From contig CM049318.1 in NCBI GenBank assembly GCA_026874595.1, positions 42,574,456-42,638,455 on the forward strand: DNA of 64,000 nucleotides. The letters are read 5' to 3'. Both the position numbers and the translations under genes were made by a program. Below, in pieces: positions 2,691 through 53,945 of the stretch. The notes below the pieces were generated by a model. It saw only the letters and a program-made list of their open reading frames with translations, ran no database searches and was not told the origin of the DNA. Source of the stretch: Sipunculus nudus. Taxonomy: Eukaryota > Annelida > Sipuncula > Golfingiida > Sipunculidae. Numbering within the stretch: the first letter of the stretch is position 1; each line of letters begins with the position of its first letter.

Positions 2691-3550
2691 TAAAATCTCG
2701 TTGTGTCGAGGTAGAAGGGACCGGTGAATTTTCTTCGACACATCCGGTGTTCGAAACAACCGATATTCATTATATTCAAACATCTTTAGCCTTAATTATA
2801 TCAATTAATACTGCACAAGTATACAGTTCTAACAAATGTTTGCGTGAAAGAACAACACAGGTTTTATAACAAATTTATTTATTAATAAAAAAGCGCACAA
2901 GTATCATCAAAAATTAGGATAAGGAAAATCAGGAAAGTGAAATGGGAGCACATACAGGTATGAAAGCACACAAATCATCAAATGCAATCAGTGTCTTGGT
3001 CTGACCACCACGTTCTACCTGGACCAGCGCTTCGTACTTTTGTTAAATGGATTTCACATCAGACTTAAGAGTGCCGCGACGCAATAGCAAACAGGACACG
3101 AACAATATAAAAGTGAAGCAGTAAAGCAGTATATAACGTACCCTATGGTACAAATAAGAGTCAGTCTGAAAGGTCTACGCTTTCTCCCTTTATATAGAGA
3201 TCTGTGTGTCCCAGACACATCAAAGAAAAGGAACCCATTATGTTTGTTTTTTATAACTTCTCATTTCGAATTATGGCTTTGTTGGCGAAAGAAGAAAGGC
3301 CTGCTCATGAGTAAATAATTGGCCAAACAGGTACACAATGGACCAGGTGTGTAAACCATCGCGCTTGATAAGTAAGATCCTTGCCGGTATTAATTATACA
3401 CGACACATCAGGTTTTTCGACACATCCGAGTTCGACACAAAGGGAGTTAAGTTAGTAAGGTTTTAACTGTTTTTTGCAGGGACTCAACATTCGACTTCGA
3501 CACATGCGGAAATTCGACTTAACCGAGTTCGACACAACGAGGTTTCACTG
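2688..3550. mobile_element. Non-autonomous Tc1/mariner-pogo-like DNA transposon (863 bp)
   Basis: The left end CAGTAAAATCTCGTTGTGTC is matched by the inverted right end GACACAACGAGGTTTCACTG (3531-3550), with one or two mismatches over 22 bp. TA flanks both sides (2686-2687, 3551-3552), the target duplication of the IS630-Tc1-mariner superfamily. A CAGT(A/G)AAA terminus is typical of pogo/Tigger members. Subterminal TTCGACACAT motifs recur in both orientations (2733-2745, 3404-3440, 3490-3545) and may be transposase binding sites. No transposase ORF is present. The left TA lies inside a (TA)n tract, so the exact duplication cannot be proven. Confidence 0.85.
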
Positions 3551-4092
3551 TATTTCAAATTATATATGTATAACTGTTGTATCCCATCTTTTAATTTCTG
3601 TTCATTCTCGTTAACATTCCCCCGTTCACGCACATGTCACTTTCAAACCTGTATACGGTACAGTGGCAATTATATTGGTTTTAAAAAAAGTCGGTTCAAT
3701 GCCTTATAAACTTCCACTATAAATTACTATAAATACTATATTAATATTTGAATTTTCGTATAAATTTTTATTATTGGAAAAATAAGCTTAATTTTTTACT
3801 AAGACGCATTATGTGTACGAGACGTCATGGACACATATACCAAATGTGCGTTCTTTATAAATATACATAGATCAGCGCGAACACTTAGTGAACCCAAAAT
3901 TTCTCACAAGAAATGAGGGTCCTCGCCCTAATAGCCTTCTACTATATAATGATATAAATAATATATAAAGTATCTGTAATTTAGAAATACGAAGTCAAAA
4001 TTTAATCGTTAACTTCTTGACTTAATTTTCAGGAAATGTTACTTGACGTCATTGACAAAATACCAAAAGTGGATTCATTTTGCTCAGAATAA
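3551..4092. other. AT-rich unannotated sequence
   Basis: No gene or repeat recognised. One perfect TGACGTCA octamer occurs at 4044-4051. Confidence 0.5.
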
Positions 4093-7329: not shown

Positions 7330-8757
7330 TTAATGTTTGTTACCGTTATTGTAACACTCATGAGGTGTTAAGCTTAGGGGTACTTGGTGACGTGGACATT
7401 AGGTGCTACTGTATTTGTAACAAACATCAGGTGTTACGCTAAGTTGTACTTGGTGACGTGAACATCATGTGTTACTGTTATTGTAACAAACATCAGGTGT
7501 TACGCTTAGTGGTACTTGGTGACGTGAACATCATGTGTTACTGTTATTGTAACAAACATCAGGTGTTACGCTTAGTGGTACTTGGTGACGTGAACATCAT
7601 GTGTTACTGTTATTGTAACAAACATCTGGTGTTACGCTTAGTGGTACTCGGTGACGTGAACATCATGTGTTACTGTTGTTGTAACACTCATGAGGTGTAA
7701 CGCTTAGGGGTATTTGGTGACGTGGACATCATGTGTTACTGTTATTGTAACAAACATCAGGTGTTACGCTTAGTGGTACTTGGTGACGTGAACATCATGT
7801 GTTACTGTTATTGTAACAAACATCAGGTGTTACGCTTAGTGGTATTTGGTGACGTGAACATCATGTGTTACTGTTATTGTAACAAACATCAGGTGTTACG
7901 CTTAGAGGTACTTGGTGACGTGGACATCATGTGTTACTGTTATTGTAACAAACATCAGGTGTTACGCTTATTGGTATTTGGTGACGTGAACATCATGTGT
8001 TACTGTTATTGTAACACTCATGAGGTGTTACGCTTAGGGGTACTTGGTGACGTGGACATCATGTGTTTCTGTTATTGTAACAAACATCAGGTGTTACGCT
8101 TAGTGGTACTTGGTGACGTGGACATCATGTGTTACTGTTATTGTAACAAACATCAGGTGTTACGCTTAGTGGTACTTGGTGACGTGAACATCATGTGTTA
8201 CTGTTATTGTAACACTCATGAGGTATTACGCTTAGTGGTACTTGGTGACGTGAACATCATGTGTTACTGTAATTGTAACAAACATCAGGTGTTACGCTTA
8301 GTGGTACTTGGTGACGTGAACATCATGTGTTACTGTTATTGTAACACTCATGAGGTATTACGCTTAGTGGTACTTGGTGACGTGAACATCATGTGTTACT
8401 GTAATTGTAACAAACATCAGGTGTTACGCTTAGTGGTACTTGGTGACGTGAACATCATGTGTTACTGTTATTGTAACACTCATGAGGTGTTACGCTTAGG
8501 GGTACTTGGTGACGTGGACATCATGTGTTACTGTTATTGTAACAAACATCAGGTGTTACGCTTAGTGGTACTTGGTGACGTGAACATCATGTGTTACTGT
8601 AATTGTAACAAACATCAGGTGTTACGCTTAGTGGTACTTGGTGACGTGAACATCATGTGTTACTGTTATTGTAACACTCATGAGGTGTTACGCTTAGGGG
8701 TACTTGGTGACGTGGACATCATGTGTTACTGTTATTCTAACACACATCAGTTCTTTC
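7330..8757. repeat. 66-bp satellite array, about 21 copies, two monomer types
   Basis: GGTGACGTG recurs every 66 bp from 7386 to 8706 (21 occurrences, 1320 bp apart in total). Type A monomers carry AACAAACATCAGGTG and TTAGTGG. Type B monomers carry AACACTCATGAGGTG and TTAGGGG. In the right half A and B largely alternate, giving a 132 bp higher-order unit. Each monomer has a GTTAC...GTAAC hairpin. The 354-codon ORF at 7722-8786 (Cys-rich 22-residue repeat) exists because 66 is divisible by three. There is no independent sign that it is a gene, although the frame survives essentially the whole array. Confidence 0.95.
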
Positions 8758-17790: not shown

Positions 17791-18944
17791 CTTTTAGAGA
17801 AAGGCGATATAACCATTTATCTCATACCATCATTCAAGAGAATATCTTATCAGGTTTTCCACGGATCCAGAACATTTCTCGTATTTAGGAGGTGAAATCC
17901 CACAGCCTTGTAGAATAAAAAGTCCCCATGGCATGACACCTAGGGACCTGTAGTTGTATAGCCGAGAATGATAAAGCCGATAAAAAAATCAAAGATGAAA
18001 CGGCGTGGATTTTAAAACTTTATTCGCTACAGGGCCTTAACGTTTTTACCTTCCTAACTTATGTGAATATGTATAAGTTGGTTTCAGTGCTCTTCTATGA
18101 GAAATCACAGGACGCCATAGATCTTTATTATTACAGGCGATCCGGGATAAATTGCTGGACTGGGGCGTCTCATAATATCAACAAGCAGGGCCTGGAAGCC
18201 ACAAATATAACAGGCAGACACGACATGGAAAAAGTATGTAATCTATCTGTCTGAAACAGACACAGAATAATCCAGGGATACTTTGTCTGGGGACGCATAT
18301 ATTCAACTCTCATCGTTTTCTATTCCATTTTAATACTGCAAGATGACTGAGGCCTGGTGCCTCCTGCCAAAGGTTACTAAATCTCGCCCCCGGCCGCTGG
18401 TGGTTTTGTAGGCACATGTGAAAGGACCCTGTCCACCCGGTTTATCGTTCTTGCTTCTCTTCCGCCCCGTGGGGCATCGCCCAAAGACCAGGAGAAATTA
18501 CCCGTCGTCAAAGTCAGCCACCAGATGTTGAAGATGCTGACAGCCGCGGTGAACGCGGGGCTGTGATTTTATATTGACCGACATGACGGTCTGTCGCTGA
18601 TGAAGAGCTTACCATTCTGGCTTCGAGGACGGTGATGTATGAAGCATCAAAAACATCACCCAATGAATTTCATATATATGACAGAATCACAAAAAACTGA
18701 GAAATCATATTTTACATCATGCAGGATAGGGAGGAACATTTATCGTACCAATATCCATTACCCACTGGTGGATGTAGGGACACGGGAGGGGCTCCTTCAT
18801 TGAATTTTTGACATTTCAGAAGTAATGTTTTTTAATACGAATGTACAAAAAAGTGGTTACATATCTCCTTAAAATTTCGTATTTGTATAAGGCTTTAATT
18901 ACGTAAGGGAAACTCATGACGACTACATAATAACCGATGAGGTA
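17791..18944. other. Unannotated sequence with a GC-rich island
   Basis: 18340-18620 is clearly more GC-rich than its surroundings and not tandemly repeated. It contains imperfect stem-loops (for example GACCG...CGGTC near 18576-18591). No ORF of note. It might be an exon, a regulatory island or an old insertion. Confidence 0.35.
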
Positions 18945-21285
18945 TATGACAGACAGTGATAGTTAAGGAGGTGTATGTGACATATGTACAGACGGTGATA
19001 GTTCAGGAGAGATATGTGTCATATGTACAGACGGTGATAGTTCAGGAGAGATATGTGACATATGTACAGACGGTGATAGTTCAGGAGAGATATGTGTCAT
19101 ATGTACAGACGGTGATAGTTCAGGAGAGATATGTGTCATATGTACAGACGGTGATAGTTCAGGAGAGATATGTGACATATGTACAGACAGTGATAGTTCA
19201 GTAGAGATATGTGACATATGTACAGACGGTGATAGTTCAGGAGAGATATGTGACATATGTACAGACGGTGATAGTTCAGGTGAGATATGTGACATATATA
19301 CAGACGGTGATAGTTCAGGAGAGATATGTGACATATGTACAGTCGGTGACAGTTGAGGAGTTATATGTGACACACGTACAGACGGTGATAATTGAGGAGT
19401 AATATGTGACACATGTACAGACGGTGATAGTTCAGTAGGTGTGTGTAACATAGATACAGACGGTGACAGTTCAGGAGATATATGTGACATATATGTTAAG
19501 ACGGTGATAATTGAAGAGTTATATGTGACATATGTACAGACGGGGATAGTTCAGGAGGGATATGTGACATATGTACTGAGAGTGATAGTCCAGGAGAGAT
19601 ATGTGACATATGTACAAAACAGTGAATGTTCAGGAGATATATGTGACATATGTACAAAAGGCTGACAGTTCAGGAGTAATAGGTGACATATGTACAGACA
19701 GTGACAGACTGACAGTTCAGGAGTTATATGTGACATATGTACAGACAGTGACAGTTCAGGAGATATATGTGACATATGTACAGACGGTGACAGTTTAGGA
19801 GGGATATGTGACATATGTACAGACGATAACAGTTCAGGAGGGATATGTGGCATATGTACAGACGGTGATGGTTCAGGAGAGATATGTGACATATGTACAG
19901 ACGGTGATAGTTCATGGAGATATGTGACATATGTACAGACGGTGATAGTTCAGTAGGTGTGTGTAACATAGGTACAGACGGTGACAGTTGAGGAGATATA
20001 TGTGACATATATGTAAAGACGGTGATAATTGAGGAGTTATATGTGACATGTACAGACAGTGATAGTTCAGTAGGTGTGTGTGACATATATACAGACGGTG
20101 ACAGTTCAGGAGTTATATGTGAAATATGTACAGACGGTGATAGTTCAGGAGGGATAAATTACATGTGGACAGACAGTGATAGTTCAGGAGAGATATGTGA
20201 CATATGTACAGACGGTGATAGTTCAGAAGAGATATGTGACATATGTACAGACGGTGATAGTTCAGGAGAGATATGTGTCATATGTACAGACGGTGATAGT
20301 TCAGGAGAGATATGTGACATATGTACAGACGGTGATAGTTCAGGTGAGATATGTGACATATATACAGACGGTGATAGTTCAGGAGAGATATGTGACATAT
20401 GTACAGTCGGTGACAGTTGAGGAGTTATATGTGACACACGTACAGACGGTGATAATTGAGGAGTTATATGTGACACATGTACAGACAGTGATAGTTCAGT
20501 AGGTGTGTGTAACATAGATACAGACGGTGACAGTTCAGGAGATGTATGTGACATATATGTAAAGACGGTGATAATTGAGGAGTTATATGAGACATATGTA
20601 CAGACGGTGATAGTAAAGGAGGGATATGTGACATATGGACAGACAGTGATAGTTCAGGAGAGATATGTGACATATGTACAGACGGTGATAGTTCAGGAGA
20701 GATATGAGACATATGAACAGACAGTGACAGTTGAGTTATAAGTGACATAGGTACAGACGGTGACAGTTCAGGAGGGATATGTGACATATGTACAGACAGT
20801 GATTGTTCAGGAGAGATATGTGACATATGTACAGACGGTGATAGTTCAGGAGAGATATGTGTCATATGTACAGACAGTGATAGTTCATGAGAGATATGTG
20901 ACATATGTACAGACAGTGATGGTTCAGGAGAGATATGTGACATATGTACAGACGGTGATAGTTCAGGAGAGATATGTGACATATGTACTGACAGTGATAG
21001 TTCAGGAGAGATATGTGAAATAGGTACAGACAGTGATAGTTCAGGAGATATATGTGACACATGTACAGACGGTGACAGTTCAGGAGTTATATGTGACATA
21101 TGCACAGACGGTGACAGTTCAGGAGTTATATGTGACATATGTACAGACAGTGACAGTTCATGAGTTATATGTGACATATGTACAGAGAGTGACAGTTCAG
21201 GAGATATATGTGACATATGTACAGACGGTGACAGTTCAGGAGGGATATGTGACATATGTACAAACAGTGACAGTTCAGTTGAGGA
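18945..21285. repeat. 39-bp satellite array, about 60 copies
   Basis: The unit contains GACGGTGATAGTTCAGGAGA and GATATGTGACATATGTACA, 39 bp in most copies, with ACATATGT as a small palindrome. Variant units (GTCGGTGACAGTTGAGGAG, CACACGTACA, GTGTGTAACATAGATACAG) occur in the same order at 19341-19500 and 20405-20590, an offset of 1064 bp, which indicates a higher-order duplication. Thirteen-codon periodicity keeps frames open on both strands. Confidence 0.95.
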
Positions 21286-23775
21286 GGTTCCAGTGTGTGA
21301 CAGTGTTTGGACGGTGACAGGCGAGGAGGTACCAGTGTGTGACAGTGTTTGGACGGTGATAGTTAAGGAGGTACCAGTGTGTAACAGTGTTTGGACGGTG
21401 ACATTTGAGGAGGTACCAGTGTGTAACAGTGTTTTGACGGTGACAGTTGAGGAGGTACCAGTGTGTGACAGTGTTTTGACGGTGACAGTTAAGGAGGTAC
21501 CAGTGTGTGACAGTGTTTTGACGGTGACAGTTAAGGAGGTACCAGTGTGTAACAGTGTTTGGACGGTGACATTTGAGGAGGTACCAGTGTGTGACAGTAT
21601 TTTGACGGTGACAGTTAAGGAGTTACCAGTGTGTAACAGTGTTTGGACGGTGACAGTTAAGGAGGTACCAGTGTGTAACAGTGTTTGGACGGTGACAGTT
21701 GAGGAGGTACCAGTGTGTGACAGTGTTTTGACGGTGACAGTTAAGGAGGTACCAGTGTTTAACAGTGTTTTGACGGTGACAGTTAAGGAGGTACCAGTGT
21801 GTAACAGTGTTTGGACGGTGACATTTGAGGAGGTACCAGTGTGTGACAGTGTTTTGACGGTGACAGTTAAGGAGGTACCAGTGTGTAACAGTGTTTTGAC
21901 GGTGACAGGCGAGGAGGTACCAGTGTGTGACAGTGTTTGGACGGTGACAGTTGAGGAGGTACAAGTATGACAGTGTTTGGACGGTAACAGGTGAGGAGAT
22001 AAGTGTGTGTGACAGTGTTTTGACGGTGAAAGTTGAGGAGGTACCAGTGTGTGACAGTTTTTTGACGTTGACAGTTGAGGAGGTACCAGTGTGTGACAGT
22101 GTTTGGACGGTGACAGTTAAGGAGGTACCAGTGTGTAACAGTGTTTTGACGGTGACAGTTAAGGAGGTACCAGTGTGTAACAGTGTTTTGACGGTGACAT
22201 TTGAGGAGGTACCAGTGTGTGACAGTGTTTTGACGGTGACAGTTAAGGAGGTACCAGTGTGTAACAGTGTTTTGACGGTGACAGTTGAGGAGGTACCAGT
22301 GTGACATTGTTTGGACGGTAACAGGTGAGGAGATAAGTGTGTGTGACGGTGTTTGGACGGTGACAGTTGAGGAGGTACCAGTGTGTAACAGTGTTTTGAC
22401 GGTGACAGTTAAGGAGGTACCAGTGTGGAACAGTGTTTTGACGGTGACAGTTGAGGAGGTACAAGTGGGACAGTGTTTGGACGGTGACAGTTAAGGAGGT
22501 ACCAGTGTGACATTGTTTGGACGGTAACAGGTGAGGAGATAAGTGTGTGTGACAGTGTTTTGACGTTGACAGTTGAGGAGGTACCAGTGTGTAACAGTGT
22601 TTTGACGGTGACAGTTGAGGAGGTACCAGTGTGACATTGTTTGGACGGTAATAGGTGAGGAGATAAGTGTGTGTGACAGTGTTTTGACGTTGACAGTTGA
22701 GGAGGTACCAGTGTGTGAGAGTGTTTGGACGGTGACAGGCGAGAGGTACCAGTGTGTGACAGTGTTTGGACGGTGACAGTTGAGGGGATCCAATGTGTGA
22801 CAGTGTTTGGACGGTGACATTTGAGGAGGTACCAGTGTGTGACAGTGTTCTGACGTTGACAGTTAAGGAGGTACCAGTGTGTAACAGTGTTTGGACGGTG
22901 ACAGTTAAGGAGGTACCAGTGTGTAACAGTGTTTGGACGGTGACATTTGAGGAGGTACCAGTGTGAAACAGTGTTTTGACGGTGACAGTTGAGGAGGTAC
23001 CAGTGTGTGACAGTGTTTTGACGGTGACAGTTAAGGAGGTACCAGTGTGTGACAGTGTTTTGACGGTGACAGTTAAGGAGGTACCAGTGTGTGACAGTGT
23101 TTTGACGGTGACAGTTAAGGAGGTACCAGTGTGTAACAGTGTTTTGACGGTGACAGTTAAGGAGGTACCAGTGTGTAACAGTGTTTGGACGGTGACATTT
23201 GAGGAGGTTCCAGTGTGTGACAGTGTTTTGACGGTGACAGTTAAGGAGGTACCAGTGTGACATTGTTTGGACGGTAACAGGTGAGGAGATAAGTGTGTGT
23301 GACTGTGTTTGGACGGTGACAGTTGAGGAATTACCAGTGTGTGACAGTTTTTTGACGGTGACAGTTAAGGAGGTACCAGTGTGGAACAGTGTTTTGACGG
23401 TGACAGTTGAGGAGGTACAAGTGTGGAACAGTGTTTTGACGGTGACAGTTGAGGAGGTACAAGTGTGACAGTGTTTGGACGGTGACAGTTAAGGAGGTAC
23501 CAGTGTGACATTGTTTGGACGGTAACAGGTGAGGATATAAGTGTGTGTGACAGTGTTTTGACGTTGACAGTTGAGGAGGTACCAGTGTGTAACAGTGTTT
23601 TGACGGTGACAGTTGAGGAGGTACCAGTGTGACATTGTTTGGACGGTAACAGGTGAGGAGATAAGTGTGTGTGAGAAGTTTGGACGGTGACAGTTGAGGA
23701 GGTACCAGTGTGGAACAGTGTCTGGACGGTTTCAGGTGAAGAGGTACAAGTGTGTGACAGTGTTTGGACGATACA
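21286..23775. repeat. 42-bp satellite array, about 58 copies
   Basis: The unit contains GAGGTACCAGTGTGTGACAG and TGTTTTGACGGTGACAGTTA, 42 bp. It joins the 39 bp array without a gap, inside a hybrid unit near 21270-21290. A distinctive variant with GACATTGTTTGGACGGTAAC and GTGAGGAGATAAGTGTGTG recurs near 21965 (partial), 22305, 22505, 22635, 23260, 23510 and 23630, marking higher-order blocks. The ORFs of up to 284 codons here follow from the unit being 14 codons long. Confidence 0.95.
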
Positions 23776-29619: not shown

Positions 29620-32600
29620 TTCCCTGTATACTGACGTCCACACTAGCATCCCCTTGATCCCTCCTATACGGACGTCCTCACTAGCATCCCCTTGAACCCC
29701 CGTATACTGACGTCCCCACTAGCATTCCCTTATTCCCTCGTATACTGATGTCCTCACTAGCATCACCTTGATCCCTCGTATACTGATGTCCTAACTAGCA
29801 TCCCCTTGATCCCTCCTATACAGACGTCCTCACTAGCATTCCCTTGATCCCCCGTATACTGACGTCCTCACTAGCATTCCCTTATTCCCTCGTATACTGA
29901 TGTCCTCACTAGCATCACTTTGATCCCTCGTATACTGATGTCCTAACTAGCATCCCCTTGATCCCTCCTATACATACGTCCTCACTAGCATCCCCTTGAT
30001 CCCCCGTATACTGACGTCCTCACTAGCATCCCCTTGATCCCCCGTATACTGACGTCCTCACTAGCATTCCCTTATTCCCTCGTATACTGATGTCCTCACT
30101 AGCATCACCTTGATCCCTCGTATACTGATGTCCTAACTAGCATCCCCTTGATCCCTCCTATACAGATGTCCTCACTAGCATCCCCTTGATCCCCCGTATA
30201 CTGACGTCCTCACTAGCATTCCCTTGATCCCTCGTATACTGACGTCCTCAATAGCATCCCCTTGTTCCTCTTGATCCCTCGTATATTGACGTCTGCACTA
30301 GCGTCCCCTTGTTCCCCCGTATACTGACGTCCTCACTAGCATCCCCTTGATCCCTCGTATACTGACGTCCTCACTAGCATCCCCTTGTTCCTCTTGATCC
30401 CTCGTATATTGACGTCTGCACTAGCGTCCCCTTGTTCCCCCGTATACTGACGTCCTCACTAGCATCCCCTTGATCCCCCGTATACTGACGTCCTCACTAG
30501 CATTCCCTTGATCCCTCGTATACTGACGTCCTCACTAGCGTCCCCTTGTTCCCTCGTATACTGACGTCCACACTAGCATCCCTTTGATCCCCCGTATACT
30601 GACGTCCTCACTAGCGTCCCCTTGATCCCCCGTATACTTACGTCCTAACCAGCATCCCCATGATCAATCGTATATTGACGTCCTCACTAACGTCCCCTTG
30701 ATCCCCCGTATACTGACGTCCTCACTAGCGTCCCCTTGTTCCCTCGTATACTGACGTCCACACTAGCATCCCTTTGATCCCCCGTATACTGACGTCCTCA
30801 CTAGCGTCCCCTTGATCCCCCGTATACTTACGTCCTCACTAGCATCCCCATGATCACTCGTATATTGACGTCCTCACTAGCGTCCCCTTGATCCCCCGTA
30901 TACTGACGTCCTCACTAGCATCCCCTTGATCCTCCGTATATACTGACGTCCTCACTAGCATCCCTTTGATCCCCCGTATACTGACGTCTTTACTAGCGTC
31001 CCCTTGATCCCCCGTATACTGACGTCCTCACTAGCATCCCCATGATCACTCGTATATTGACGTCCTCACTAGCGTCCCCGTGATCCCCCGTATACTGACG
31101 TCCTCACTAAAGTCCCCTTGATCCCTCGTATACTGACGTCCTCACTAGCGTCCCCTTGATCCCCCGTATACTGACGTCCTCACTAGCGTCCCCTTGATCC
31201 CCCGTATACTGACGTCCTCACTAGCGTCCCCTTGATCCCGCGTATACTGACGTCCTCACTAGCGTCCCCTTGATCCCCCGTATACTGACGTCCTCACTAG
31301 CATCCCCATGATCACTCGTATATTGACGTCCTCACTAGCGTCCCCTTGATCCCCCGTATACTGACGTCCTCACTAGCGTCCCCTTGATCCCCCGTATACT
31401 GACATCCTCACTAGCGTCCCCTTGATCCCCCGTATACTGACGTCCTCACTACCGTCCCCTTGATCCCCCGTATACTGACGTCCTCACTAGCGTCCCCTTG
31501 ATCCCCCGTATACTGACGTCCTCACTAGCATCCCCATGATCACTCGTATATTGACGTCCTCACTAGCGTCCCCTTGATCCCCCGTATACTGACGTCCTCA
31601 CTAGCGTCCCCTTGATCCCCCGTATACTGACGTCCTCACTAGCGTCCCCTTGATCCCCCGTATACTGACGTCCTCACTACCGTCCCCTTGATCCCCCGTA
31701 TACTGACATCCTCACTAGCGTCCCCTTGATCCCCCGTATACTGACGTCCTCACTACCGTCCCCTTGATCCCCCGTATACTGACGTCCTCACTAGCGTCCC
31801 CTTGATCCCCCGTATACTGACGTCCTCACTAGCATCCCCATGATCACTCGTATATTGACGTCCTCACTACCGTCCCCTTGATCCCCCGTATACTGACGTC
31901 CTCACTAGCGTCCCCTTGATCCCCCGTATACTGACGTCCTCACTAGCGTCCCCTTGATCCCCCGTATACTGACGTCCTCACTAGCGTCCCCTTGATCCCC
32001 CGTATACTGACATCCTCACTAGCGTCGCCTTGATCCCCCGTATACTGACGTCCTCACTACCGTCCCCTTGATCCCCCGTATACTGACGTCCTCACTAGCG
32101 TCCCCTTGATCCCCCGTATACTGACGTCCTCACTAGCATCCCCATGATCACTCGTATATTGACGTCCTCACTAGCGTCCCCTTGATCCCCCGTATACTGA
32201 CGTCCTCACTAGCGTCCCCTTGATCCCCCGTATACTGACGTCCTCACTAGCATCCCCATGATCACTCGTATATTGACGTCCTCACTAGCGTCCCCTTGAT
32301 CCCCCGTATACTGACGTCCTCACTAGCGTCCCCTTGATCCACCGTATACTGACGTCCTCACTAGCAATCCCATGATCACTCGTATATTGAAGTCCTCACT
32401 ACCGTCCCCTTGATCCCCCGTATACTGACGTCCTCACTAGCGTTCCCTTGATCCCCCGTATACTGACGTCCTCACTAGCATCCCCATGATCACTCGTATA
32501 TTGACGTCCTCACTAGCGTCCCCTTGATCCCCCGTATACTGACGTCCTCACTAGCGTCCCCTTGATCCCCCGTATACTGAAGTCCTCACTAGCGTCCCCT

Positions 32601-34640
32601 TGATCCCCCGTATACTGACGTCCTCACTAGCGTCCCCTTGATCCCCCGTATACTGACATCCTCACTAGCATCCCCTTGATCCCCCGTATACTGACGTCCT
32701 CACTAGCGTCCCCTTGATCCCCGGTATACTGACGTCCTCACTAGCGTCCCCTTGATCCCCCGTATACTGACGTCCTCACTAGCGTCCCCTTGATCCCGCG
32801 TATACTGACGTCCTCACTAGCGTCCCCTTGATCCCCCGTATACTGACGTCCTCACTAGCATCCCCATGATCACTCGTATATTGACGTCCTCACTAGCGTC
32901 CCCTTGATCCGCCGTATACTGACGTCCTCACTAGCGTCCCCTTGATCCCCCGTATACTGACATCCTCACTAGCGTCCCCTTGATCCCCCGTATACTGACG
33001 TCCTCACTACCGTCCCCTTGATCCCCCGTATACTGACGTCCTCACTAGCGTCGCCTTGATCCCCCGTATACTGACGTCCTCACTACCGTCCCCTTGATCC
33101 CCCGTATACTGACGTCCTCACTAGCGTCCCCTTGATCCCCCGTATACTGACGTCCTCACTAGCATCCCCATGATCACTCGTATATTGACGTCCTCACTAG
33201 CGTCCCCTTGATCCCCCGTATACTGACGTCCTCACTAGCGTCCCCTTGATCCCCCGTATACTGACGTCCTCACTAGCATCCCCATGATCACTCGTATATT
33301 GACGTCCTCACTAGCGTCCCCTTGATCCCCCGTATACTGACGTCCTCACTAGCGTCCCCTTGATCCACCGTATACTGACGTCCTCACTAGCAATCCCATG
33401 ATCACTCGTATATTGAAGTCCTCACTACCGTCCCCTTGATCCCCCGTATACTGACGTCCTCACTAGCGTTCCCTTGATCCCCCGTATACTGACGTCCTCA
33501 CTAGCATCCCCATGATCACTCGTATATTGACGTCCTCACTAGCGTCCCCTTGATCCCCCGTATACTGACGTCCTCACTAGCGTCCCCTTGATCCCCCGTA
33601 TACTGACGTCCTCACTAGCGTCCCCTTGATCCCCCGTATACTGACGTCCTCACTAGCGTCCCCTTGATCCCCCGTATACTGACATCCTCAATAGCGTCCC
33701 CTTGATCCCCCGTATACTGACGTCCTCACTAGCGTCCCCTTGATCCCCGGTATACTGACGTCCTCACTAGCGTCCCCTTGATCCCCCGTATACTGACATC
33801 CTCACTAGCGTCCCCTTGATCCCCCGTATACTGACGTCCTCACTACCGTCCCCTTGATCCCCCGTATACTGACGTCCTCACTAGCGTCCCCTTGATCCCC
33901 CGTATACTGACGTCCTCACTACCGTCCCCTTGATCCCCCGTATACTGACGTCCTCACTAGCGTCCCCTTGATCCCCCGTATACTGACGTCCTCACTAGCA
34001 TCCCCATGATCACTCGTATATTGACGTCCTCACTACCGTCCCCTTGATCCCCCGTATACTGACGTCCTCACTAGCGTCCCCTTGATCCACCGTATACTGA
34101 CGTCCTCACTAGCGTCCCCTTGATCCCCCGTATACTGACGTCCTCACTAGCGTCCCCTTGATCCCCCGTATACTGACGTCCTCACTAGCGTCCCCTTGAT
34201 CCCCCGTATACTGACGTCCTCACTACCGTCCCCTTTATCCCCCGTATACTGACGTCCTCACTAGCGTCCCCTTGATCCCCCGTATACTGACGTCCTCACT
34301 AGCGTCCCCTTGATCCCCCGTATACTGACGTCCTCACTAGCGCCCCCTTGATCCCCCGTATACTGACGTCCTCACTAGCGCCCCCTTGATCCCCCGTATA
34401 CTGACGTCCTCACTAGCGTCCCCTTGATCCCCCGTATACTGACGTCCTCACTAGCATCCCCATGATCACTCGTATATTGACGTCCTCACTAGCGTCCTCT
34501 TGATCCCCCGTATACTGACGTCCTCACTAGCATCCCCATGATCTATCGTATACTGACGTCCTCACTAGCATCCCCTTGATCCCCCGTATACTGACATCCT
34601 CACTAGCATCCTCTTGATCCCCCGTATACTTATATACGTT
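29620..34640. repeat. 38-bp satellite array, about 130 copies, with 1026-bp higher-order duplication
   Basis: The unit contains GTCCTCACTAGCGTCCCCTT and GATCCCCCGTATACTGAC, 38 bp. A variant with CATGATCACTCGTATATTGA recurs at irregular multiples of 38. A rare double variant (GATCCACCGTATAC then CAATCCCATGATCACT) occurs at 32365 and 33391, exactly 1026 bp (27 units) apart with matching neighbours, so a long block was duplicated. The left 1 kb (29620-30700) is more heterogeneous (CATTCCCTTATTCCCTCG forms), and the right 3.5 kb is highly homogenised. Nearly every unit contains TGACGTC. Stops occur regularly, so there are no long ORFs. Confidence 0.97.
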
Positions 34641-35855: not shown

Positions 35856-36255
35856 TGATAAAGAAATATACTCATCAACCACTGCAAGCGTCCCCTCCCT
35901 ACGGAAGCAGGCTTAATAAATGAAGTTTAGGAGAACTGTTATAATGTTATTAAAAATATTAAAATTAAGAAAATACAGCAATTCACGTTCTTCAAGATAA
36001 TTAAGCAAAACAAAATCAAAGGCAATCCATCCGTTTTACTTAGAAGAATCTTATGATGCTTATATCAGTCTTTGTTCAGTAGCTCGGAGGATCAGTCATA
36101 GTCAGATGCGATAATGATCGTAGACTGAAAAAAAAAATCAATATTGTCAAGTTTCATTACTATATTGCCACTTTGAAATTACAACAGGATGGGTCGTTTT
36201 TATTACAATATTGACCGTTATTACAATATTGGACGGTTATTACATTAAAGTTGGT
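35856..36255. other. Unannotated sequence ending in TTATTACAATATTG units
   Basis: From 36180, short units resembling GGGTCGTTTTTATTACAATA and GACCGTTATTACAATATTG appear, related to the termini of the adjoining foldback element. They may be a remnant of a further copy. Confidence 0.5.
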
Positions 36256-36782
36256 TGTTACGACCCATATTGTAATAACAGTCCAATATTGTTAAAATGG
36301 CTAATATTGTATTAGAAATGGCACCACATTTCTTGTAAAAAAATGAGTAACATTGCAATAATTGTACCTCACCTTTGCGGTAAACAGCATGGTAGGTCAA
36401 TATTGTAAAAAAAAGTTTAGAAGATTATGATTAAATTCATGTCAAATTTTCATAGACAATCTAAATACTGACTTCCTGTGACTCGACTGTTTACGTGAAC
36501 ATACAAATATGAAAAGCACGGGATTTCCATTATGACTGCATGTGTTATACTAATGAGGAACCAAAATGGCTGTCATTTAGGAAGGTATTCTCAAACGACA
36601 TATCGCCTGTTAGATTCATTCTTGAGCTTAAAATTGTGTTTTTACAATATGTGCCGTTTTTTCCCACTTCCCGCTTTTATAACAATATGGTCAGGGTATG
36701 ATTAATACAATATGGGTCGTTTTTATTACAATATGGACCGTTATTACAATATGGGCCGGTTATTACAATATGGGTCGTAACA
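36256..36782 (-). mobile_element. Short copy of a foldback-type element with minisatellite termini
   Basis: The left end is TGTTACGACCCATATTGTAA and the right end is the inverse TTACAATATGGGTCGTAACA. The right 140 bp is a run of units such as TTATTACAATATGGGCCG. Aligned by eye in reverse complement to the 49011-50618 copy, both ends match: the inner left part (TAGACAATCTAAATACTGAC, GTGAACATACAAATATGAAA) corresponds to 50290-50400, and the inner right part (TTCTTGAGCTTAAA) corresponds to 49290-49315. It is therefore an inverted, internally deleted member of the family. No flanking duplication is visible (TTGGT against AAACC). Confidence 0.7.
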
Positions 36783-38820: not shown

Positions 38821-38890
<70 letters not shown>

Positions 38891-39354
38891 TTTTTAAAAA
38901 TTATTCTGTTTATCCTGTTTAAATAATTTATAACCTAATCCTTACACTGATTAAAAAAAAGGATAGACATGATACATGGCCATATTTCGTTCATTTAACT
39001 TGGTCACCGTCATTTTGATTCATTTAAACAGATAGTGATTCTGTGTATCTAGTGGTTTTCCATACCTGTATATGTTCACGTACACATTCGTGTCACGAGA
39101 AGTCAATATTTGAATTGTCTAAGTTAATTTGCATGAAATTTAAATTATAAAATTATTGGCCATCTTACCCACCTGCGATTATATTACAGTATGGTCCGAT
39201 TTACCCACTTGCATTTTTATTACAATATGGGCAGGATATGGTTATTACAATATGGGCCGTTTTGTATTACAATATGGGCCGTTATTACAAAAGTCGTTTT
39301 TATTACATTATAGGCAATTATTACAATATTATTATTACATTATGTGTCGTAACA
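38821..39354 (+). mobile_element. Right half of a foldback-type element, preceded by (TA)n
   Basis: 38821-38886 is a (TA)n tract. 38940-39354 matches 50200-50618 by eye (CATGGCCATATTTCG, CACATTCGTGT(C/T)ACGAGAAG, TCAATATTTGAATTGTCTAA, then TTACAATATGGGCCG units). It ends TGTGTCGTAACA at 39354. The intact copy at 49011-50618 also has (TA)n at the corresponding place, so the Ginger-like element landed in this element's own (TA)n. The left half is not present. Confidence 0.72.
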
Positions 39355-46244: not shown

Positions 46245-46990
46245 AGGGTTGTTGTAATAACGTTCACTATTGAAATAACGTTCGCTATTGTAATAAATTT
46301 CGTTATTGGTATAAATTCTGACGTGAGAGGATTACAATATTTGGAATACTATAATTCCCCAGCATTTTACAATTGAACACAAATATAAAATAATGTTGGC
46401 ATTTTAAGATGGACGATGAGGGAAATTATTTTTCAGTGGTGAGATAAAACAGGCCACTTGTTTTTATAACCATAGTGACCGTTATTACAATAGTGGTTGC
46501 ATGACCCGGTCACTTTTGTAATAACGTTCGCTATTGGTATAAATTTCATTATAGGTAAAATTAATGACATATGGGTGGATTACAACGTTTGGAATACTAT
46601 GATCCCCCAGCATTTTACAATTGAACACAAATATAAAACAATGATGGCATTTCAAGAGGAACCATGAGAGAATTATTTCTTCAGTGGTGAGATATAACTG
46701 GCGGCTAGCTTTTATTACAATAGTGACCGTTATTACAATAGTGGTTGCACGACCAGGTCACTATTGAAATAACTTTCACTATTGTAATAGATTTCGTTAT
46801 AGGAATAATAAATGATGTTAGAGTGGATGTTTGGAATAATACAATACTGCAGCATTCTAGGCTTGAACACAAATATAAAACAATGTGGCATTTTAAGATG
46901 AACGATGAGAGGGATTATTTCTTCAGTGGTCAGATAAACGTGGCCGCTCGTTTATATTACAAGAGTGACCGTTATTGTCTCCCCAGTCCT
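46245..46990. repeat. Three tandem units of about 248 bp with TTATTACAATAGTG termini
   Basis: ATTACAATAGTGGTTGCA(T/C)GACC marks unit borders near 46484 and 46732. TTCAGTGGT(G/C)AGATA occurs near 46432, 46680 and 46921, and AATTGAACACAAATATAAAA-like text once per unit. Each unit is bounded by short inverted-looking motifs (GTAATAACGTTC(A/G)CTATTG on the left, TTATTACAATAGTGACCG on the right), so the monomer itself looks like a miniature foldback element multiplied in tandem. Confidence 0.85.
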
Positions 46991-47099
46991 ATGGTTTCAA
47001 GACGGTCCACCGCCGCCGCCGAAGAAAATTCTTTATGAACGGGATAACTAAAAAAATATTTCACTGATCTTTATTAAACTTAACAAGTGTGTATAGATA
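46991..47099. other. Short spacer
   Basis: No feature apart from a GCCGCCGCCG run near 47010. Confidence 0.4.
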
Positions 47100-48330
47100 T
47101 AGGTAAGAGGACGAAGCCATTTAAAATGGGGTCATGACCTTTGCTAGAAGAGTGATTTGATTAAGTCCATTTTGTGCTGAAAATAACAAAAATTCTTAAA
47201 TATTGGTCCAAAAATCATGGTGACCGAAGATCTTGGATAGCCATTTGATGTGCCAGAAACTGACGGCGCCTCCTACTATCCTTTTCTTGATTTCACGCCT
47301 TTTAATTCCCCCATAATTTTCAATAAATTAGTTTCCGCATGACAATTCCAGCTTATATTGATGTATGGATTTCAAACTTGACTTATATATGGCCCATCAA
47401 TTAAGCAAGCATCCTATTGATTTTGGGGTCACAAGATCAAAGGTCAAGGTCACAGGACATCGTTAAAAATGTTTGATGCATTTTCAGCCAAATTTTCATC
47501 TCAGACCTTTTATCTTGCATATATAGTTTACCTGTCAATAGAGGAAGACCCCTATCAATTTCGAGGTCACAAGGTCAAAGGTGAAGGTCACAGGAGCCAT
47601 CTGTCCAAAAATTAGGTTCCGAGATGATAATTCTAGCTTGGAATAATATATGGATTTCAAACTTGACTTATATATGGCCCATCAATAAAGCAAGACCTCT
47701 ATTGATTTTGAGGTCATGAGGTCAAAAGTCAAGGTCACAGTACCCACATCTTAAAAAAAAAAACTTGTGGATGCATTTTAAGCCAAACGTTTAATCAGAG
47801 ACCTTCCTCCTTGCAGATATAGCTCACGTAGCAATAGAGGAAGATCGATATCAATTTTGGGGTTACAGGGTCAAAGGTGAAGGTCACAGGAGCCATCTGT
47901 CCAAAAATTCATTTCTTGATGATAATTCCAGCTTGGATTATATATGAGTTTCAAACTTGACTTATATATGGCCCATCAATAAAACAAGAATCCTATTGAT
48001 TTTGGGGTCATGAGGTCAAAGGTCAAGGTCACAAGACCCACACCTTTTAAAGATTGTGGATGCATTTCAAGCAATACTTTTTATCGTAAGCCTTTCCTCT
48101 TGCAACTATAGTTGACCTGCCAATGGGTGAAGATTCCTATAAATTTTTGGGTCACAAGGTCATAGGTCGATGTGACAGGAGCCATCTGTTCACAAATCTT
48201 TGGAAACAGATTCTTGGTCAACCCCATAATTTTGAAGTACTGCATCTTTTTCCTTCAAATTTGACACAACAATCTCAATCAAGCTGTCAGACAAGTTCAA
48301 ACATTTGTGACCTTGGCCTTGTCATGTGTC
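47100..48330. repeat. About 290-bp tandem repeat rich in AGGTCA half-sites
   Basis: GGATTTCAAACTTGACTTAT starts comparable blocks at 47367 and 47651, with a partial one at 47946. Each unit holds two clusters such as GGTCAAAGGTCAAGGTCAC (near 47430, 47572, 47707, 47869, 48010, 48155). Such AGGTCA-dense repeats are, in my knowledge, widespread in mollusc genomes. No ORF of significance; the 112-codon frame at 48123-48461 lies in repeat. Confidence 0.8.
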
Positions 48331-48420: not shown

Positions 48421-48705
48421 TTTATCACGATAGTGGTCGCCCGACACGGTCACTGTTGTAATAAAGGTCACTGTTGTAATAAAGGTCACTAGTGTAATAA
48501 AGGTCACTAGTGTAATAAAGGTCACTAGTGTAATAAAGGTCACTAGTGTAATAAAGGTCACTGTTGTAATAAAGGTTACTGTTGTAATAAAGGTCACTAG
48601 TGTAATAAAGGTCACTAGTGTAATAAAGGTCACTAGTGTAATAAAGGTTACTGTTGTAATAAAGGTCACTAGTGTAATAAAGGTCACTAGTGTAATAACA
48701 TATAA
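48421..48705. repeat. 18-bp minisatellite (GGTCACTAGTGTAATAAA)
   Basis: About 14 units of 18 bp with CTAGTG or CTGTTG variants. It is preceded by GATAGTGGTCGCCCGACACG, which resembles the border motif of the 248 bp units at 46245-46990, so it is probably the expanded terminus of that element type. Confidence 0.93.
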
Positions 48706-48948
48706 AATACCAACTGATACGTTTCTGGGAAAACTGAGTATGAATTGTGTGTGGTTTTTTTTCGGGGAATGCCATTAGTTAGGTAGAATCTCAACGAATC
48801 TTTGAAAAATTTCCGCCTGCAACATCAACCACTATTGTGTTAAAAAAAATTAACAATAGTGGTTGCAAATGCAACCATTGTTGTAATAATTATTACAATA
48901 GTGAACGTTATTACAATAGTGGGTACAGAGGGTACACCTAGTTTGCGA
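48706..48948. repeat. Hairpin and terminal repeats of the ACAATAGTG family
   Basis: CAACCACTATTGTGTTA and its inverse TTAACAATAGTGGTTG (about 48828-48866) form a stem with an A-rich loop. Then come TTATTACAATAGTGAACG and TTATTACAATAGTGGG units to about 48925. Confidence 0.7.
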
Positions 48949-49010
48949 TCAAAGTGACATGTGCATGTGTTGAGCGGCCACGTGCATGTGTTCAGCGGCA
49001 ATGTGCATGT
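48949..49010. repeat. 22-bp minisatellite (GTGCATGTGTTGAGCGGCCA), left part
   Basis: About three units lie here and continue after 50618 in the same orientation. The array is interrupted by the foldback element at a CATGT site. Confidence 0.8.
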
Positions 49011-49457
49011 TGTTACAACCCATAATGTAATAACCGGCCCATAATGTAATAACGGCCCATATTGTAATAAAAACGACCCATAATGTTATAATCATACCCT
49101 GGCCATATTGTAATAAAACTGGCCCATACTGCAATAACGGCCCATAATGTAATAAAAAACGGCCCATATTGTAATAACGGCCCATATTGTAATAAAAACG
49201 ACCCATATTGTAATAATCATACCCTACCTATATTGTAATAAAACGGGAAGTGGGAAAAACGACCAATATTGTAATAACATATATATATTGTAATAACATA
49301 TGTTTAAGCTCAAGAATGACAGGGCACACGCTTAGTGTCATTTACATAATATCCTGCCCCCTCCCATACCTTCTCCATGAACCTGTTACTAACCTCAATG
49401 AAACCATGGTTCACAATTGAATAAAAAAATCATATTTTCATACACTAAAATATAACG

Positions 49458-49504
<47 letters not shown>

Positions 49505-49515
49505 TTATTATTTTA

Positions 49516-49557
<42 letters not shown>

Positions 49558-50138
49558 GTATATATAACAGTTTTCATAGTACCCATGTATGCATATTAGC
49601 GCCCCCCCCCCCCCCCCACAACTTTCGAATTTCTAAATCCGCCACTAATCATGGCCCCCTGCCCTCCCTCAAACCTGGTTACGCCCCTGAATCTCCCTGC
49701 TCTGCGCCCTATGCTCTACCTCTAGAACACAGAAACCGGCAATTTCAAATTGTTGTTTTGTTGTTAGGGCTAATTATTTTTAAAAATTAAATTGTAAACT
49801 CTTGAATCGCACGAATGACGCATCCAGGTTTTAACTTCAAATACGTGCGTTGAAAGCTCTTAATCTTTGCGACGTGTTATACATGTTAACCTAAGACATC
49901 TTAACCTATGCATATATGGGCACAAAACAATTGCAGCAGTACCTACATTTATAATTTCTAAATCTCGGAAGGTTTCGGGAGATCATATAAAATATTCTCT
50001 ATGATACATTGAGCAAAACACACTGAAATTTAAACTTTCATTTATATTTTAAAAAGAATTAAAATACATTAAAATGTATCGATAATGAGAGTTTTGTATA
50101 TTTTATCTGTTAAAATTGACAAAATATTTACATTTTGG

Positions 50139-50177
<39 letters not shown>

Positions 50178-50618
50178 TATTATCTTGTTTTAATACTTTA
50201 TCACCCTATTTAAACACTGATTCAACAAAAGAATAATCATGAATCATGGCCATATTTCGCTCATATTAGCTTTGTCACCGTTTTAAACAAATAGTCATTA
50301 TGTAATCCAGTGGTTTTTCATACTTGTATGTTCACTTACACATTCGTGTTACGAGAAGTCAATATTTGAATTGTCTAAATTAATTTGCATGAACTTTGAT
50401 TTATAAAATTATTGGCCGTTTTTACCCACCTTCGATTTTATTACGATATGGGCCGTTTTACCCACTTGCGATTTTATTTCAATATGGGCAGGGTATAGTT
50501 ATTTCAATATGGGCCGTTTTTTATTACATCATGGGCTATTATTACATTATGGGTCGTTTTATTACAATATGGGCCGTTATTACATTATGGCCCAGTTATT
50601 ACATTATGGGTCGTAACA
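49011..50618 (+). mobile_element. Complete foldback-type element (1608 bp) with minisatellite inverted termini and 5-bp duplication
   Basis: Left end TGTTACAACCCATAATGTAA, right end inverse TTACATTATGGGTCGTAACA. The inverted termini extend about 280 bp on the left (49011-49295) and about 215 bp on the right (50405-50618). Each is an array of 17-22 bp units (CGGCCCATATTGTAATAA and its inverse), with AGTGGG(A/T)AAAACG near the inner edge of both. CATGT flanks the element directly (49006-49010, 50619-50623). The interior has (AAT)n at 49459-49503, (TA)n at 49523-49556 and 50141-50180, and a poly-C run at about 49603-49617, but no transposase. The architecture matches foldback (FB-like) elements, and the TGTTA terminus recalls Ginger. 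It may be mobilised in trans. Confidence 0.82.
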
Positions 50619-50690
50619 CATGTGTTGAGCGGCTGCATGCATGTTTTGATCGGCCACGTGCATGTGTTGAGCGGCTGCACGTATGTCGGC
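50619..50690. repeat. 22-bp minisatellite, right part
   Basis: CATGTGTTGAGCGGCTGCAT, GATCGGCCACGTGCATG and GTTGAGCGGCTGCACGTATG continue the array split by the foldback element. Confidence 0.8.
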
Positions 50691-52324
50691 GCAACCTTCT
50701 TCCTTGGTGTCAATAGCATAAATTCTGAATCATTTTGCCTTCAGCGCTTTTAACGAGGCATTGCATACAACCTACTTAGTTTTCTTATTTTATTCTAAAA
50801 CAAAATATAATATATTTAGACCGCTATGTTTATAAAACTTTATGTTTTGCATTTTCTGTTTAATACATGGGGAATTTTTGCCATATTCTTGACCTTAAAT
50901 ACCCTTTTTTTATTTTTGTGATTCTTATCTTGTATCGTATATGTGAATACCGGAAATTAAAGATGCCGTATTTTTTTATATCAAGAAAAACGCTGTACGT
51001 GTCATGTAGCGGATTACTTTTCTTCTCTATATTTCTCTGCTGCAATATTGAAGGCCTACATGTTATTATATATTTAGTTTTTTTTTACATTCTTTTATTG
51101 CCAAAGATCACTGATTTAAATAAATAATTAAATTATCTGCTCAAAATTATACGAGAAAGGGGTTGTTTTGCTTATAGTGATGCCAATAAATTACAAAGAC
51201 AGAGAAACAAATTCTCTGGTAGCAGCTATGAAACAACCCATTCCATTCAGCTGTATCATTGACATGAAAAAGGAATAATTAACCAGCAGTCACAGGAAGT
51301 GGCTCACTGAGAATACAGTTGTTGTTGGATCTTGTGCAGTTATTCGACGCGGGAACAAACTTGCGCCTCTGCTTACCGATTTTAGACTTACAAATGCTTT
51401 CGCTTGTTGCATAGAGAGTATTACATTACCAAGTTTTATTGACTGTCAAGTTCACTAAGTGGGCATGCGTTTGTCTCTAGGTTTAAGGTTCTGTTTGTTC
51501 CTTTCTATTTATTAGCGGGTCGTTTGTAGACGCTCGAGGACAAATCGTTCGAATGACGTAACCAACGCACGAGACGGGATAGTTGAAAAATCGTTCATAT
51601 TGTGAATGGTACAAGCAATATATTTTCATTATGATTCTGTATATGTCTCTCTGTACAAAACTGCCCTGGACCACGCAAAGATCCAACATTGAAAAAAAAA
51701 AAACCGTCAGTAGTAATAGCGGGCGCTCCAGATACCTTCTAATTTCCAAGCTTTCTGATATGATGGTAGATCTTTTTCTTTAAATACCGTTAGTGAATCG
51801 TGGTGAAGATCATGTCTATCCCCTTAGCAGTGCATTAAAAGGGTAAAATCCCTTTTTATTCAAGTTTTTTTAATTATTCAGTGGTCTATTTGGCACTCGG
51901 TCATGGCGTAAATTACATACATGGAATACAAGAGACAGGTCGCGATACAGATATGTGGCGACTAGTTCTCATGGTCTGTTTACATATGAGGACAGGATAT
52001 AGGACAGGTTATTTTACCTCGGGTTCTGCAAAAGATCTTTCTTGAAGGGAAACCAGAATTGAATTAGATAGTTTTACTCTGACTTTTAGAAAAGTCATTA
52101 TAAGGAGCTAATATTAAAGGCTATTTACATTCTTATCTGCTGACACTGTCACTTTTATTTATTTTGCAAATCATCATCAGTGCCAACATTCGTAAGCATT
52201 AGCGATCAAGTGCTCCCAATTACATGCACAATACAGAGTCAAATCAGGTGTTTTCAAGCCGCCTTATTCTGACTCAGCTCTTTTATCGAAACAATTTCTT
52301 TTAGTGAGATAAAACACGAACATA
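50691..52324. other. AT-rich single-copy-looking sequence
   Basis: No gene is supported. A minus-strand frame at 51483-51749 (88 codons) has a hydrophobic, signal-like start (LLLLTVFFFSML) but no other support. Confidence 0.4.
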
Positions 52325-53945
52325 CCAGCAGGTGGTGAGATAACACATATATAAACTAGCCAGGTGGTAAAATAACACATGTACAAACGGTGAGATAACG
52401 CACGTACATACCAGTCATACCAGTCAGGTGGTGAAAGAACCCACGTACATAGCAGTCAGGTGGTGAGATAACACACATATAAACTAGCCAGGTGGTAATA
52501 TAACTCACATACATACCAGTCAAGATGTGAGATAACATACGTACAAACCAGCCATACCACCAAGGTGGTGAGATAACACACGTACAAACCAGCCACACCA
52601 GTCAGGTGGTGAAATAACACATGTTCAAACCAACCAGATGGTAAGATATCTCACGTATATACCAGCCAGGTGGCGAGGTAGCACAGTTAAAAACCAGCCA
52701 GGTGGTGAGGTAACACATATATAAACTAATCATGTGGTAAGATAAAATATGTACATACAAGTCAGGTGGTAAGATTACGCACGTACAAATCAGCCATACC
52801 AGCAAGATGGTGAGATAACACACGTACAAACATGCCATACCAGTCAGGTGGTGAAAGAACCCACGTACATAGCAGTCAGGTGGTGAGATAACACACATAT
52901 AAACTAGCCAGGTGGTAAGATAACACGTACAAACGGTGAGATAACGCACGTACATACCAGTCATACCAGTCAGGTGGTGAAAGAACCCACGTACATAGCA
53001 GTCAGGTGGTGAGATAACACACATATAAACTAGCCAGGTGGTAATATAACTCACATACATACCAGTCAAGATGTGAGATAACATACGTACAAACCAGCCA
53101 TACCACCAAGGTGGTGAGATAACACACGTACAAACCAGCCACACCAGTCAGGTGGTGAAATAACACATGTTCAAACCAACCAGATGGTAAGATATCTCAC
53201 GTATATACCAGCTAGGTGGCGAGGTAGCACAGTTAAAAACCAGCCAGGTGGTGAGGTAACACATATATAAACTAATCATGTGGTAAGATAAAATATGTAC
53301 ATACAAGTCAGGTGGTAAGATTACGCACGTACAAATCAGCCATACCAGCAAGATGGTGAGATAACACACGTACAAACATGCCATACCAGTCAGGCGGTGA
53401 GAAAACACAGGTTCAAACGAGCAAGATGGTGAGATAGCACACGTATAAACAAGCCATACCAGCAAGGTGGTGAGAAAACACATTTTCAAACGAGCAAGAT
53501 GGTGAGATAACACAGTTACAAACCAGCCAAGTGGTAAGATAACTCACGTACATACCAGCCAGGTGATGAGATAACTCGAGTACATACCAGCTAGGTGGTG
53601 AGATAACTCACGTACATACTAGCCAGGTGGTGAAATAACTCACGTACATACTAGCCAGGTGGTGAGATAACTCACGTACCTACTAGCCAGGTGGTGAGAT
53701 AACTCACGTACATACTAGCCAGGTGGTGAGACAACTTACGTACATACTAGCCAGGTGGTGAGATTACTCACGTACATGCTAGCCAGGTGCTAAGATAACA
53801 CATGTACATACTAGTCAGGTGGTAAGATAATATACACAAACCAGCCATACCAGCAAAGTGGTGAGATGACTCACGTACAAACCAGATATACCAGTCAGGT
53901 GATGAGATAACACACGCACAAACCAGCCAGGAGCCATGACCAGTA
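52325..53945. repeat. Composite 32-42 bp minisatellite with a 546-bp duplicated block
   Basis: The basic 32 bp unit carries GGTGGTGAGATAACTCACGT and ACATACTAGCCA (regular at 53600-53780). Longer units insert CATACCAG(T/C)CA. A 546 bp segment is duplicated in tandem almost perfectly: 52356-52906 resembles 52902-53452, and one visible substitution is CAGCCAGGTGGC near 52668 against CAGCTAGGTGGC near 53214. The long minus-strand ORF (52602-53144) arises from the array. Confidence 0.92.

Follow-up and report, generated by a model that had tools for sequence, protein, structure and literature searches.

A non-autonomous, foldback-like DNA transposon family with minisatellite arms and 5-bp target duplications in Sipunculus nudus

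The 1608-bp element described here almost certainly belongs to a real and mobile family of non-autonomous, foldback-like DNA transposons. Members of the family are dispersed through the genome of Sipunculus nudus with constant ends and 5-bp target duplications, at least one move was very recent, and no gene was recognised in the copies that we read. The constant inverted termini and the fixed length of the duplication are those of a DNA transposon with terminal inverted repeats, and the long inverted ends of tandem repeats, enclosing a middle in which no gene was recognised, are foldback-like. We infer that the family moves by cut and paste through an integrase-class enzyme (TG..CA ends, retroviral-type DDE), with the repeat units of its ends acting as binding sites.

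The window, by which we mean the whole stretch of 64,000 nucleotides that was analysed (C13:42574456-42638455, in an assembly of 1.43 Gb and 153 contigs), contains the features collected in Table 1. An earlier note, made from the letters of the window, had described a 1608-bp element with TGTTAC..GTAACA ends, and this description was borne out, the span that it gave (49006-50623) being the element together with both copies of CATGT. The first bases of the element are TGTTACAACCC and the last GGGTCGTAACA. Inverted ends built of tandem units were found as described; the arms measure 290 and 240 bp, and the units are spaced mostly at 18-25 bp, with one spacing of 35-36 bp in each arm. The two arms agree at 164 of 203 aligned positions, and the internal duplication of the left arm (TRF period 125, 90% matches) is an extra that the right arm lacks. 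The insertion does split a minisatellite at CATGT, although the period of that host array is 21 bp and not 22 as first thought, and the 21-bp phase of the array is restored once the element and one CATGT are removed. CATGT also occurs inside the host array itself, so the window by itself cannot decide whether the motif was duplicated, and it is the other genome copies that do. Kilobase-long minisatellite arrays occur elsewhere in the window as well (29622-34630, 18944-23770, 7338-8750 and 52304-53931; periods 38, 39 and 42, 66, 32/64).

Table 1. Features of the element, its insertion site and related sequences, in positions of the window.
Feature	Position	Strand	Remarks
Non-autonomous foldback-like DNA transposon	49011-50618	+	1608 bp, TGTTACAACC...GGTCGTAACA; 499 terminal 23-mer matches genome-wide
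Left terminal arm	49011-49300	+	290 bp; 13 unit cores (CGGCCCATATTGTAATAA-like); internal duplication of ~125 bp
Middle, containing runs of ATA, AT and C	49301-50378	+	copies of 3.0-3.7 kb have a longer middle
Right terminal arm, inverted	50379-50618	-	240 bp; 8 unit cores; spacing order similar to left arm
Target site duplication CATGT, left copy	49006-49010	+	
Target site duplication CATGT, right copy	50619-50623	+	
Host 21-bp minisatellite, left part	48961-49010	+	
Host 21-bp minisatellite, right part	50619-50686	+	
Decayed sister-family copy or copies	46259-48922		matches 46259-48197 and 48664-48922; ~80 bp left of the target site duplication
Short family copy, 527 bp	36256-36782	- (by eye)	both terminal 23-mers exact
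Older array remnant, end to end with the 527-bp copy	36190-36255 (approximate, limits by eye)		
Right part of a family copy	38821-39354	+	left side stops in an (AT)n run

Across the genome, the terminal 23-mer TGTTACNACCCATANTGTAATAA has 499 exact matches (245 forward and 254 reverse) and its reversed control has none, and among 100 places listed for it we found, by eye, 34 pairs of inward-facing ends within 6 kb of each other. These 34 pairs, together with L035, six long pairs on other contigs, nine pairs of end pieces and the window copy, gave a set of 51 copies whose flanks could be compared. The selection of copies for exact terminal 23-mers accounts in part for the constancy of the ends in this set, but not for the duplication. 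In 46 of the 51 copies, including the one in the window, the target duplication was exact and 5 bp long, and exact duplications of 3, 4, 6, 7 or 8 bp were present in none. Shifting the comparison outward by 1, 2, 3, 5, 10 or 15 bp gave 0/51 at each distance, and comparing the left flank of each copy with the right flanks of the others gave 11 matches in 2550. Both the constant ends and the 4-5 bp duplications that the earlier note had anticipated in genome copies were found, the exact duplications being of 5 bp, with none of 4. The five misses comprise L001 and L068, whose flanks are unlike and which fail without good reason, L002 and L103, which are one base off, and L003, which consists of two successive copies, with CCTTT on either side of the inner copy of 3494 bp. 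In an unsymmetrised profile of 33 copies, A stands three bases before the duplication in 25/33 and T occupies the mirrored position in 25/33, while G is the first duplicated base in 18/33 and C the last in 16/33; over all 46 copies, for which the table is symmetrised by construction, G and C make up 66% of the duplicated bases. The target is approximately AAR GNNNC YTT, in which GNNNC is the duplication.

The window copy and L035 differ by only 2 substitutions in 1604 aligned bases (1602 matches), besides gaps of 1, 4, 9 and 20 bp, and they lie on separate contigs (C13 and C10) within different duplications, CATGT and AGAGG. This near-identical pair shows that the family moved recently, and a functional enzyme is therefore probably present, or was until recently. 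The earlier proposal of a mobile family thus holds, on the grounds of dispersed copies, 5-bp duplications and a near-identical copy on another contig. The best 40 of 901 candidates matching the middle of the element have 95-100% identity, the window copy included. Copies fetched whole range from 625 to 7505 bp, with recurring size classes of about 1.6, 3.0, 3.2 and 3.7 kb (some of these sizes come from coordinates only). Most of the long copies that were compared have about 0.27 kb in common with the window copy at one end and about 0.48 kb at the other, and some also have stretches of its middle. The arrays themselves vary, one arm of L040 being expanded to about 500 bp. L067 (5061 bp, duplication GCATC) contains 1826 bp (180-2001) with 97.5% identity to C4:47233962-47235781, where no family sequence was found in the 4 kb read. 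A stretch within these 1826 bp codes for a portion of a protein that has 82 genome matches. The direction that we infer is that L067 probably took up genomic DNA.

Two other places in the window, at 36256-36782 and 38821-39354, had been named as related copies. Both are indeed members of the family, the second matching longer copies at 80-82% identity along about 0.5 kb, but a matching duplication is lacking at the first, whose flanks read GTTGGT and AAACCC. A further stretch, at 2381-2687, matches interior sequence of the 3.7-kb copies L005 and L069 with 94% identity. In the copies L044, L050 and L051, two family ends stand head-to-head with a few bases missing (GGTCGTTGTTACGACC), and the window near 36249 resembles, by eye, a diverged form of this junction, a place at which a pattern search gave no match.

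The earlier note had also suggested a search for long copies containing a transposase. Copies of 2.9-7.5 kb were found, and a transposase was recognised in none of those read, namely the 34 pairs within 6 kb, L035, 20 of the 32 unpaired ends (about 2.7 kb inward) and, from 12 pairs of at least 2.8 kb chosen by eye on other contigs, six that were fetched, including the three longest. Open frames of at least 110 aa numbered four in six long copies, the longest (133 aa) being made of AT repeats; other frames were artefacts of arrays or AT runs, a frame or two of 118-127 aa, and the piece of the multi-copy protein in L067. Pfam was applied to six frames each of L001, L002:1000-5765 and L050, to three frames of L049, to one frame of L004:900-1500, and to L067:180-2545 and 3400-3800 (three frames for 3400-3800), the remaining copies being scanned for long frames only. 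No match up to E 0.1 was obtained for the six frames of L001 or L002:1000-5765, and L050 gave two matches below the cut-off, HTH_65 (E 0.011) and Dimerisation (E 0.056). Frames of L004 and L049, to which Pfam gave no match, contain what we take, by its motif, to resemble a Penelope-type GIY-YIG domain.

Profile searches for integrase domains were made with PF00665, PF24764 and PF13683, scoring 150 of 4779, 150 of 158 and 150 of 2794 candidates, and the matches listed on large contigs included 145 of rve, 40 of rva_4 and 140 of rve_3. Two of these listed matches lie within 15 kb of the 251 listed places of the family, at about 12 and about 8 kb, at a resolution of 1 kb; judging by which way the listed ends face, we read both as sitting outside elements. 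No listed integrase-domain match lies within 15 kb of the 52 listed places of the sister family described below. L117 and L118, from the PF13683 groups, have a chromodomain-bearing integrase with neighbouring frames and are presumably Polinton/adintovirus stretches; no units of the family were found in them. At 25 or more further listed places the PF13683 match covers profile positions 17-66, as it does in these high-copy integrase frames. Bacterial-looking rve matches were seen on the small contigs C106, C110, C118, C128, C134 and C135, perhaps through bacterial contamination of the assembly.

A sister family, of which the window holds decayed sequence (Table 1), has the ends TGTTGCAACC and units like GGTCACTATTGTAATAAC, with a similar 18-bp unit. 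Its sequence TGCAACCACTATTGTAATAA occurs 297 times in the genome, often several times in one sister element, and the control occurs 0 times. The units of the two families have the same base at 15 of 18 positions, the sister unit retaining the core TATTGTAATA with a different spacer. Both families have in common the terminus TGTTRCAACC and an 18-bp unit, CGGYCMMTATTGTAATAA. From ten sister end pairs that were fetched, L084/L085, whose right end lies beyond the piece, was left out; eight of the other nine have an exact 6-bp duplication and the ninth one of 5 bp. Four sister elements were read whole (6.2-7.3 kb), and among these a 6-bp duplication was found in one by script and in another by eye, while two differ by one base. 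L074 scored 5 by script, its first bases being altered, and 6 by eye (ACGCCC). No assignable frame of at least 110 aa was found in the four whole copies, nor any Pfam match over the cut-off in L073:1500-5700 (three lay below it). Part of the length of L096 is a nested Gypsy-like retrotransposon, and L097 holds 3.1 kb of unassigned sequence. The insert in L096 (from 2247) has a 951-aa frame with gag, protease-like and integrase parts, followed downstream by remains of reverse transcriptase/RNase H, a domain order that we judged by eye to be unusual. Compound ends of inverted units were seen in the sister copies L072-L097.

The same genome contains elements with the rva_4 domain, for which PF24764 has at least 40 listed matches; the ten loci that we read (L056-L065) fall into seven families by our own grouping. 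A TACGG or CCGTA end was seen in six of the seven families, one end each, and none was seen in L063. Just inside the end, by about 30 bp, these elements have arrays of 21-bp units whose sequence differs between families, the arrays being long in six and, in L060/L061, consisting of only two units followed by a 22-bp A-rich array. Neither the ends nor the units are those of the present family. Judging by these ends and the published TA..TA description (PMC10045372), we take the rva_4 elements to be IS3EU/GingerRoot.

No autonomous partner was found in the copies read, so the class of the enzyme is read from the ends and the duplication length, and the TG..CA ends, the 5-bp stagger and the weakly symmetric target together suggest one of the integrase class. 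That the family belongs to Ginger2/TDD as a non-autonomous member, and is moved by a transposase resembling a Gypsy integrase, is a serious possibility, though it falls short of being probable. The ends and the weakly symmetric target would fit an integrase, TGTTA at both ends fits the published Ginger2 end TGTNR, TDD-4 and TDD-5 have 5-bp duplications and terminal inverted repeats of 260 and 297 bp, and a non-autonomous family is tabulated in the same source (PMC2836005). However, the other Ginger2 elements have 4-bp duplications, leaving TDD-4 and TDD-5 as the only ones to agree with 5 bp, and a preference for RTATAY, derived from 64 Nematostella elements, where the present family has GNNNC with A/T flanks; the portion of that source used here does not mention minisatellite arms such as ours (PMC2836005). 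Nor was any Ginger2 enzyme found linked to family ends in the copies read or among the domain matches listed. Thus, Ginger2/TDD comes closest by its ends, but the target does not follow the Ginger2 preference and we do not assign the family there. It is rather unlikely that a TG..CA branch of IS3EU/GingerRoot supplies the enzyme for both the present family and its 6-bp sister. The sister duplications, mostly of 6 bp, would suit GingerRoot, which has 6-bp duplications, occasionally TG..CA ends and an integrase-type transposase (PMC10045372), and the rva_4 elements, by our own assignment of their ends IS3EU elements of this genome, also have tandem arrays of 21-bp units at their termini. Against this, those arrays start some way inside TACGG/CCGTA ends (where ends were seen) and are made of different units, and every listed rva_4 match is more than 15 kb away from the listed places of both families. 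In addition, GingerRoot termini are mostly TA..TA and IS3EU/GingerRoot duplications 6 bp (PMC10045372), whereas the present family has TGT..ACA and duplications of 5 bp, with 6 bp in 0/51 copies.

It is improbable that an LTR-retrotransposon integrase mobilises the family in trans. LTR retrotransposons usually do have TG..CA ends and short duplications, and there were 4779 rve candidates at first look, but inverted arms were seen here in place of LTRs, and a linear extrachromosomal form would be required. More improbable again is membership of the Mutator or P superfamily as a classical Foldback, even though Tetris and many Galileo copies, assigned to Mutator and P respectively, share with the present family long, internally repetitive inverted ends of tandem repeats, a variable middle and no recognised gene (PMC4079207, PMC3573991). 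Tetris duplications are of 8-10 bp (PMC4079207) and those of Galileo of 7 bp (PMC3573991), and we reject this origin on duplication length, given 0/51 copies at 7 or 8 bp, the 8-bp count also excluding exact duplications of 9 and 10 bp. We give practically no credence to a chance arrangement of inverted minisatellites with no transposon, in which CATGT came from the host array; CATGT is present within that array, but the genome copies and controls refute such an origin (duplications in 46/51, controls at 0, 499 constant ends), and the CATGT match is not due to the surrounding array alone. Among other known groups, Ginger1 is rejected because its 4-bp CCGG/CCGT duplication differs from the varied 5 bp found here, Polinton/Maverick by its 6-bp duplication (0/51), Helitron because the element has duplications and inverted ends, and Transib and hAT by their termini. 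The TU elements of sea urchins likewise have foldback ends of short tandem repeats, but their duplications are of 8 bp against the 5 bp of the present family.

Under the reading that we prefer, of a non-autonomous, foldback-like family moved by an integrase-class enzyme, a transposase encoded elsewhere would recognise the TGTTAC..GTAACA ends and join the element to a cut with a 5-bp stagger, in a target that is GC-rich inside and A/T-rich just outside. The units of the arms, consisting of the near-palindromic core TATTGTAATA and a CGGCCCA spacer, are most likely putative extra transposase-binding sites, a role that has also been proposed for the Galileo repeats (PMC3573991), and the arm arrays may lengthen and shorten in the manner of minisatellites. 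It is conceivable, if unlikely, that the TGTTRC elements form an undescribed integrase-class transposon group, whose sister families are alike in their ends and differ in having 5- or 6-bp duplications. The present family may itself be undescribed, as the earlier note had suggested, and six 14-mers from its units and termini occurred in no PMC text searched, a search within whose reach sequences in figures or supplements do not fall. If such a group exists, the spacing of the strand-transfer cuts would have changed while the recognition ends stayed, and the minisatellite arms of palindromic sites would be a multi-site docking platform, either convergent or inherited, the rva_4 elements having arms as well. 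Ends so alike, with duplications of 5 and mostly 6 bp, would allow one to ask what sets the length of the duplication. The family also appears able to carry other genomic DNA, as in the 1.8 kb of L067 with 97.5% identity to another locus. Finally, minisatellites are tied here directly to mobile DNA, in that hundreds of short terminal arrays are transposon ends, which would have been spread by transposition and then altered in length.
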